Positions 31,801 to 34,800 of a stretch of DNA of 64,000 nucleotides are shown one piece after another. A model generated the notes under the pieces. That model ran no database searches and was not told the origin of the DNA. It was given only the letters and a program-made list of their open reading frames with translations. This stretch comes from Ascidia mentula (taxonomy: Eukaryota; Chordata; Ascidiacea; Phlebobranchia; Ascidiidae): positions 4,218,501-4,282,500 of the forward strand of contig OX387200.1 in the NCBI GenBank assembly GCA_947561715.1. The letters run 5' to 3'. Within the stretch, counting starts at the first letter, position 1. Each line of letters opens with the position of its first letter. The translations under genes were made by a program, and so were the position numbers.

Positions 31801-34800
31801 TTCTAGGTGCACAAACAGGTTTAAGGCATTACCCCTAGAAAGGTCACACTTTTGTTTGCGCTCCCCTAGTTTCATGAAAAAGCGCGAAGACGAACTTTTG
31901 GAGGCATGGCGGAAGTTTTGGTTTCGAGTATTCTTTGAGGTAGTGGCGCCGTCCACAATGAGGTAGTAGGTTATGCAGTTTTCGTCGCTAATACTTTTGC
32001 GACGCTGGGAGATACTGTGTCACCTTCTACCTTTGTGGACGACGGTCGTAATCGTCCAAGTTTGTAACCGTTCTTGTGTCGTTCCGACATCAAATTCCTG
32101 TAGGTTTTTTTTTCACCAAAATGTAAACTTTGCCACGATCAAGACGGTGACTTGTCATGAGTTATTGAGTTTTTCTCGAGAAAACAAGTCAGGCAGAGGT
32201 TATTTGTGGTTATAGCACACCATCACCCTGTAGTATGAATAACAGTATGACGTGGCTCAAGGGGGGCATGCAGAGCAACAGCAGATAACAATACACAAAA
32301 CTGAGACCTGCCGACTGAGGTAGTGGATTCTGTGGTTAGTGCGCGCGCGCCATAGGACGTTTCGCGCGCGAAAGAAGGTAACCGCAAAGTCTGCTGTCTC
32401 GTTGGCGCGTATGACCATTTTCTTCGGTACGGTGAACAATATTTTCGTGGCATGAGCCAGGAACGTGCGGAATGCAGACGAGATTGCCAATCGTGTGTCT
32501 TGACAGATGACTATGTTATGGTGCTACAACGGGTGTTAGGGATGCGGGATTGTGGCTGTATTCCAAAAAAAGGGTATCAAGCCAGGCTTTTCGAATGGGT
32601 TTAAGCGTGGATTTAATTCTTTTTTGTGGTAAGAACTCGCACCTTTGCTGTGGTTTTTGACGATTTTCTTGTCCTTCTTGGCTATCCAACAACTCAGCAG
32701 ATTTAGATATCAGCCCGCATGCCCACGTACATCGTGTCCGGAATGTTTTTTTTTAAATCCCGCAGCGCGCTCTACCCGCGTGCATCGTGCAGGAATCAAG
32801 CAGAGGTGCGCAGCGGACTTGAGGTAGTAGGTTATGTTGTGAAATATACATAATACGCACACACACACGGAGATACGACGTAACCTGCTATCCTCCAGTC
32901 TGCCCGGGCCACTTTCCTCCACGTTCCTCCAATGCGAACGCACCGGCCTCAACTTCGACGCAAATCAGTAGTTGTTTTGTCCGGTCGGGCTCTGCAGGGA
33001 AGTTTAACTTCCGCGAGGATAGGAGGCACTGCTGCCAACAGTTCGCGCCGCACGTTATGGCATTTTTCAAATTTGCAAAGACCTGCTAGACGCTTTGCTG
33101 CTTTCTCGTTCAGCAGATGTGCCGACAAGCTTTCTTCGCGGTTAAAAATGTTGTTTTGGGCCTTATGGTTTTTGTGCTTTGCTTGTGAAAATTAACTTGT
33201 TAAAACTCTATAGCAACAGGATCATTGATGTGAAAAGTGGAGCTGCACTTAGTATGACCTGTTGCCTGACACTACATAGAAATATCGGCCCGATTAGCCA
33301 CACAGTCGCGGTTAAACTGGTATTTGTCTTCGCTCTGCGAAAGCCTATTTTTAGCCGCCAGTCGGTTGTACCCCGCGCGTGTACAGCTTGTCTGCGAAGG
33401 CATTGTGACGTATCAGCGGCACTGGAAACAGCACAAAATGTAGCTGGAGGTTTGGGCGCTGTCTTAGGCTGAGGTAGTAGGTTATATCAGTTCTGGCAAA
33501 CACGTGCAATAGAAGGTAACTGAATAACCTATTAGCTTGTCGAAGCAGTGCACTGACAACAAATTTATAATTAGTTACGCAAGCGTCACGTCAAGGGCTA
33601 GGCAGCCTACGATAAGGTAGAACTACTGGATACTGTGTTTGAGGGTAGAAACCATCTGTTTAATATTATTGTCAAAATTGTTAGTGATGCCTTGGAGCTT
33701 GTTTGTGATAGCTGCTATGTAGTGTGTTGACTGAACTTAAATTTCCCCATCATGTCAGTATGTTCGGTTTTAGTTCAATCGGCGTCACATTGTGTTTACC
33801 GTTAACGTCACTGGATGGTTCATCTATTATGAAACTGAAACTAATCTCTGTAGCCATGCAGTGACGCACTTCACAATTATGATGCGGTGAACCACATCAC
33901 GTGAGCTGAATAACCAGTACCCCCGGAAGCGGTTCTTTTACCGCAGAGATTTTTTCTGGTAAAAGTCAACATACATAAAACTTTTTGAATTGGCCCCTAA
34001 AACTGGTTTCAATGCGTTTAAGCCAGAAAGTCGGTCTGGATTTACTTGTAAGCCTGCTGCGGTTTGAGGTAGTAGGTTATGCAGTTTTGGCCTCGTATGT
34101 TTTTGGCCGATCGGAGATAACTGCATGACATGCTGGCTCCTCTGCTGAAAGGTGATATCTTCATAAAACTGGGGTTGGATTTGGCTAGGACATTTATGTT
34201 TCGTCACAGCGTTTGCTTTGATGCAAAGTGTCTGTTTCAATGTCTCAAAAGCTCTGTTTGGCTATTGGTTGACTTTTAGTGTTTTTGTGTTTTAAAGAAA
34301 GCTGAAAGCAAAACCTATTTTTTAAATAAGTTACATATTTTCTATCTTTTTCTGTATTGCTTACTTGTATAATTTGACCTTGGCGTTCGCAGGCCACGTA
34401 AATATTTCCCTTTGCCAAAATAACTTACTGTCCCCACCTAGCGGCCGAGCGCGCTCCCGCCATCAACGCCCTTCAACAAGCAAGCTCTTCACTTCTAGCT
34501 GTCAGTGGACAACTTGAAGGTCTGAGTTTCACCCTTCAACAAGCACGTGATTCAACTCCCTCCGATGACGTCACTACCACTGCTTCGAGCGGCGAGGCGA
34601 ACACTATTACGTCAGCGAGCGCCGCGCAAGGTAAGATTAATGCGTGTTGGGTTTGATTGGTTGGATTTGTTTACATACGTTGCTTGGCAACACTGTTCAA
34701 TTTCGTTGACAGAATTTTGTGTAAACACCGTTCTGATGGGTTAGACAACTTAAGGAAATGAATAATTGGGTGTGCAGCTGAGACAATTTGTCAGGCGAAA

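Follow-up and report, generated by a model that had tools for sequence, protein, structure and literature searches.

The window analysed here, a 64 kb stretch of the Ascidia mentula genome (C67:4218501-4282500), contained five let-7 hairpins (A to E) in sense orientation within a single intron of HUWE1. Together they probably form an intronic let-7 polycistron of the same let-7-only ancestry as human let-7f-2/miR-98. The initial annotation had placed five seed-bearing let-7 hairpins, sense to HUWE1, between two exons of that gene, and this was confirmed with the Rfam let-7 model (RF00027), the folds, the splice sites and the match of the host (Table 1).

Table 1. Features of the let-7 cluster and of its HUWE1 host (positions in the window; E-values of the hairpins with the intron alone as search space)
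Feature	Position	Strand	Details
HUWE1 exon before the let-7 intron	31124..31208	+	AG ahead, GTAAGT behind; open frame; part of the peptide matching human HUWE1
let-7-bearing HUWE1 intron	31209..34441	+	3233 bases, phase 1, GT..AG
let-7 hairpin A	31953..32038	+	5p TGAGGTAGTAGGTTATGCAGTT at 31959; RF00027 44.1 bits, E 4.9e-7; fold z -7.9
let-7 hairpin B	32310..32406	+	5p TGAGGTAGTGGATTCTGTGGTT at 32316; RF00027 42.5 bits, E 1.3e-6; fold z -4.1
let-7 hairpin C	32814..32902	+	5p TGAGGTAGTAGGTTATGTTGTG at 32820; RF00027 34.6 bits, E 1.7e-4; fold z -4.7
let-7 hairpin D	33464..33544	+	5p TGAGGTAGTAGGTTATATCAGT at 33470; RF00027 45.2 bits, E 2.5e-7; fold z -4.4
let-7 hairpin E	34059..34145	+	5p TGAGGTAGTAGGTTATGCAGTT at 34065; RF00027 53.9 bits, E 1.2e-9; fold z -3.9
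HUWE1 exon after the let-7 intron	34442..34630	+	Splice site, open frame, peptide aligned to human 2830-2854
HUWE1 UBM repeats, three, in separate exons	36029..37353	+	Pfam UBM in three open frames

The sequence TGAGGTAGT occurred six times in the 64 kb window, always on the + strand and within 2.2 kb (31936-34073), while 100 dinucleotide shuffles gave a mean of 0.24 copies and a maximum of 2, with none reaching six. Five of the six copies opened the 5' arm of a hairpin at the 5p positions listed in Table 1, and the seed GAGGUAG was found at the start of the 5' arm in all five hairpins. The five 5p sequences shared this one seed and differed downstream, except that those of A and E were identical over 22 bases. 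In the genome-wide search with RF00027 all five hairpins were recovered at E ≤ 0.0024. The Rfam gathering score of 53.5 bits was passed by E only, and the other four scored below it. For each hairpin, 0 of 200 dinucleotide shuffles folded as stably as the original. The scan of folds along the intron took hairpin C out of register (window at 32759, z -1.0), and C was refolded separately. The sixth copy of TGAGGTAGT (31936-31944), which the initial annotation had passed over, was located in the 5' flank of hairpin A, 23 bases ahead of it. It formed no separate hairpin when folded and is perhaps a small local duplication. Upstream of hairpin A the intron also contained two 50-base units in tandem that are 80% alike (31726-31825).

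The families listed by an Rfam search of the intron at E up to 1 were let-7 and mir-3596, which belongs to the same clan (two overlapping same-clan matches were unlisted), with no match to mir-10/mir-100, mir-1473 or lin-4/mir-125. This upheld the earlier statement that neither miR-100 nor miR-125 accompanies the let-7s in HUWE1. Outside the let-7 hairpins, two stable folds were observed at 32539-32628 (z -3.6) and 33809-33898 (z -3.0) among the 16 windows listed. Neither matched an Rfam family, and they are possibly candidate unnamed microRNAs or chance folds.

On peptide and domain matches the host gene is HUWE1, with the hairpins in sense. The peptide from the exons, joined by eye, matched human HUWE1 residues 2625-3108 in a phmmer search of PDB (E 7.3e-36), and all four PDB sequences matched were HUWE1. 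Pfam domains on the same strand were WWE (frame 6071-6535, about 6.3 kb), UBM (36.0-37.4 kb) and HECT (44.3-45.9 kb), which is the domain order of human HUWE1. A Pfam search of ten open frames matched two (WWE and UBM) and left eight without a match, and in a second, eye-chosen set all five frames matched. Frame 520-1065 had no PDB match at E 0.001. The portion of HUWE1 in the window covered about 39.6 kb. The phase of the let-7 intron was given by the A of an ACG codon preceding it. On the human HUWE1 scale the intron fell at about Q2822, to within a few residues because the stretch is of low complexity, with the landmark AVSGQLEG (human AVSSQLEG) on its 3' side. The codon equivalent to human R3070 was at about 37318, and the intron ended 2.9 kb 5' of that codon.

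The placement of human MIRLET7F2 and MIR98 in a HUWE1 intron, on which the initial annotation had drawn, is confirmed in print (PMC5133852, PMC2635472). A table in PMC5133852 gives miR-98 at 53556223-53556341 and let-7f-2 at 53557192-53557274, and the training table of PMC2635472 gives the value 2461 for both. We took this value to be the length of the intron. The columns of that table are not printed in the order given by its legend, so they were assigned by size. Multiplying its distance columns by the miRNA length minus 1 (118 and 82) gave a shared intron offset of 22130 and placed the two miRNAs at offsets 23433 and 24402. These are 969 apart, as are the printed coordinates. Worked out by hand from these figures, the human let-7 intron would span about 53554920-53557381. 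For the variants used as anchors, we took the coordinate of R3070 to be in the older assembly and that of G1743 to be in the newer, with an offset of 26961 between the two. R3070 is printed at 53578038 (PMC12191266) and G1743 at 53583851 (PMC11618689). V3527 in exon 68 (PMC9222325) was a further anchor and was left out of the interpolation, and the passages on HUWE1 variants in PMC8700965, PMC4214635, PMC12210447 and PMC6828700 carry no coordinates. With this assembly offset, the human intron was 3' of G1743 and some 3.8 kb upstream of the R3070 codon, and interpolation by genomic distance between the two variants put it at roughly residues 2815-2915. The human and tunicate (about 2822) positions are compatible, in an agreement that extends to a few neighbouring introns and is not proof of the same intron.

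The genome (196 Mb in 79 contigs) was also searched for let-7 and its usual partners. In the let-7 model search, 57 of the 27181 first-look candidates were scored, which makes the count of places a lower bound. The search returned eight matches at no fewer than seven places: hairpins A to E, C67:14920533-14920598 (minus strand, 41.8 bits), which was matched on both strands and counted once, and C2:16110226 (E 0.098). The last was a palindrome without the seed and was rejected. The match at C67:14920533, the only further seed-bearing one among the candidates scored, was found beside mir-1473 and a miR-125-like hairpin. On the minus strand of C67 (about 14920338-14920752) the order was mir-1473, let-7 and miR-125-like, with starts within 390 bases (5159, 5309 and 5548 on the reverse complement of C67:14916000-14925900). 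This triple cluster and the HUWE1 let-7s were on one contig, 10.7 Mb apart.

The mir-1473 hairpin scored 39 bits, where the gathering score is 95, with E 2.3e-5 in the local and E 1.1e-4 in the genome search, and was the one match found to its model among the 58 of 30064 candidates scored. Its 5' arm aligned to miR-100 with a score of 8, the best of 2000 shuffles reaching 6. In the passages of PMC5006418, on Didemnum, mir-1473 is called 'tunicate specific' and traceable to mir-100, citing Hertel et al. 2012. The miR-125-like hairpin began with TCCCTGAGACCCTAAAACGTGAT, folded at -35.0 kcal/mol and agreed with miR-125 at 15 of the 16 bases used in the pattern. In the genome the miR-125 pattern had three matches with one mismatch (one in the reversed control), and one of the three adjoined let-7. 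The Rfam lin-4/mir-125 model gave no match genome-wide at E up to 1 and left the miR-125-like hairpin unrecognised. The mir-10 model had one match in the genome, at 22.3 bits and E 0.7. With up to two mismatches, the miR-100 pattern gave 61 matches against 114 in the reversed control, and since these were below the control and all 61 carried two mismatches, canonical miR-100 was not found in the genome.

From the hairpins at C67:14.92 Mb, the ancestral miR-100/let-7/miR-125 cluster is judged to persist in this genome, diverged but together, and the earlier suggestion that the ancestral three-miRNA cluster had been broken is contradicted. The failure of the lin-4 model to match the third hairpin speaks against this persistence. 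Because the triple cluster stands separately, the HUWE1 cluster is a second, let-7-only locus. The HUWE1 cluster could also be read as what was left of a miR-100/let-7/miR-125 cluster after both partners were lost, as would agree with the partner-free Rfam search of the intron and with the silence of the lin-4 model genome-wide; with the mir-1473/let-7/miR-125-like cluster in the same genome, this reading is barely credible.

Drosha-site asymmetry was expressed as unpaired bases on the 5' strand minus those on the 3' strand. It was +2, +1, 0, +1 and +1 for hairpins A to E and 0 for the let-7 of the triple cluster; that is, four of the five window hairpins had an extra nucleotide on the 5' side (two in A), and C had none. 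Such an extra nucleotide defines the 'group II' class of pre-let-7. Among six human precursors, let-7f-2, miR-98, let-7a-1 and let-7a-2 gave +1, and let-7c and let-7e gave 0. Five of these six controls agreed with their expected class, the exception being let-7a-2, a triple-cluster member, at +1 where 0 was expected. The trait is not clean, with C lacking the bulge and human let-7a-2 carrying it.

GGAG, which we take to be the LIN28 zinc-knuckle site, was present directly before the 3p arm in the loops of A, C and E, and GAAG was present there in B and D. The loop of the triple-cluster let-7 had neither motif before its 3p arm. A LIN28-type gene was located at C52:11736082-11736189 (minus strand), with a cold-shock exon (E 0.09) followed by two CCHC knuckles in one frame. 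Its cold-shock domain was split over two frames (exons), the second stretch continuing the domain. A cold-shock domain with two CCHC knuckles is presumably the LIN28 architecture. The cold-shock profile had six matches in the genome at E 0.001 and ten at E 10; the LIN28-type gene was missed at the former threshold and recovered at the latter, and no CCHC knuckle was seen at the two inspected of the six loci found at E 0.001.

Taken together, the let-7 cluster would be transcribed with the HUWE1 pre-mRNA, and Drosha would crop the five hairpins from the intron. Dicer would then release five 5p let-7s with a common seed, those of A and E being alike. LIN28, while present, probably holds back this processing, since GGAG or GAAG is found in all five loops and the genome contains a LIN28-type gene.

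In Halocynthia roretzi, a genome survey predicted four let-7s in about 1 kb of the minus strand of scaffold S93, plus a canonical let-7 on a second scaffold, S648 (PMC5399378). Read 5' to 3', the first S93 let-7 was the same as A in all 22 bases, the second agreed with C in 21 of 22, and the third was the same as D in all 22. A and E, being identical over these 22 bases, were told apart in this matching by order alone. The fourth agreed with A and E at 20 of 22 bases and with B at 19 of 22, and the let-7 of the triple cluster agreed with that of S648 at 20 of 22. Together with the mir-1473 match, these Halocynthia-like let-7s identify the genome as tunicate. According to the passages of that survey, miR-125 and miR-1473 are known in Ciona and were not found in Halocynthia by its method (PMC5399378). 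The order and sequence match to A, C and D, with a fourth member, suggest that at least four members of the cluster probably predate the split of Ascidia mentula and Halocynthia. The same four-member group makes it plausible that the tunicate copies expanded in place, as had been proposed from the window.

The Halocynthia comparison also bears on whether some members of the cluster are in decay and no longer processed. Such decay would fit hairpin C, with its low score and symmetrical loop at the Drosha site, and a let-7-like fragment does occur here in the form of the additional seed copy at 31936. It is nevertheless improbable: the seed is complete in every hairpin, the stems were unequalled by 200 shuffles each, and the near identity of A, C and D (21-22 of 22 bases) to predicted Halocynthia let-7s suggests constraint.

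The initial annotation had further proposed that the nesting of let-7 in HUWE1 predates the tunicate-vertebrate split. This is favoured by the common host, by the let-7-only locus beside a separate triple cluster in both groups and by the rough intron position, and is unproven. Mature let-7s are too short and too conserved for a tree. Common ancestry with the human locus is likely: the host gene is the same, and a bulge like that of human let-7f-2 and miR-98 is seen in four of the five hairpins, although this trait is not clean. Under the opposing account, let-7 entered HUWE1 twice, separately in the tunicate and vertebrate lines, either by chance or through a bias towards long, broadly expressed hosts. 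The intron match, which is rough and not at base level, leaves room for this, and the passages of PMC1388199 report that let-7 had duplicated non-locally at least once before the genome duplications of vertebrates. At about 39.6 kb of 196 Mb, a sense landing in this part of HUWE1 would be expected about 1 in 10,000 times per insertion, and the coincidence would be unlikely even with a few human host genes to match, unless long genes were favoured. The rough placement of the human intron also agrees with that of the tunicate. Independent capture is unlikely, and shared descent of the HUWE1 cluster is the preferred reading.

Building on shared descent, a wider proposal can be made tentatively, with somewhat less than even confidence. 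The processing classes of pre-let-7 may be older than vertebrates and may track two ancient loci, with unbulged precursors from the miR-100/let-7/miR-125 cluster and bulged precursors from a let-7-only cluster already present in HUWE1 of the tunicate-vertebrate ancestor. The other let-7-only clusters of vertebrates would then be genome-duplication copies that have lost the HUWE1 host.

All elements described here belong to known families. As far as searched, what is new is that let-7 lies in HUWE1 of a tunicate which also has a triple cluster elsewhere in its genome. A search of open-licence literature found no paper joining HUWE1, let-7 and Ciona, which does not establish that the nesting is undescribed, and let-7, tunicate and HUWE1 did not occur together among the literature matches listed. 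The passages on amphioxus and Didemnum do not mention a host gene of let-7. Should shared descent hold for the nesting, a microRNA would have remained within a single ubiquitin-ligase gene, and perhaps within a single intron of it, since before the tunicate-vertebrate split. The origin of the vertebrate let-7-only clusters could in that case be answered from exon positions in a few genomes, and such let-7 paralogues, beside a separate triple cluster, would have preceded the vertebrate genome duplications.

Compared with known systems, the layout of five HUWE1 let-7s and one separate let-7 resembles the four plus one of Halocynthia S93 and S648, each species having one separate canonical let-7, although S93 has four members where Ascidia mentula has five and its host is not stated in the passages of the survey. 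The bilaterian miR-100/let-7/miR-125 cluster has let-7 in common with the HUWE1 cluster, but the latter is a different locus; the triple cluster at C67:14.92 Mb corresponds to it, with mir-1473 in the place of miR-100. The human let-7f-2/miR-98 locus (Xp11.2) differs in having two members against five, its mature sequences diverge after the seed, and its intron is placed roughly only. It is likewise hosted by HUWE1, in sense and in a compatible region of the protein, and consists of let-7 only, with the human triple clusters located separately from it. Its precursors carry the +1 bulge at the Drosha site, as in hairpins B, D and E.
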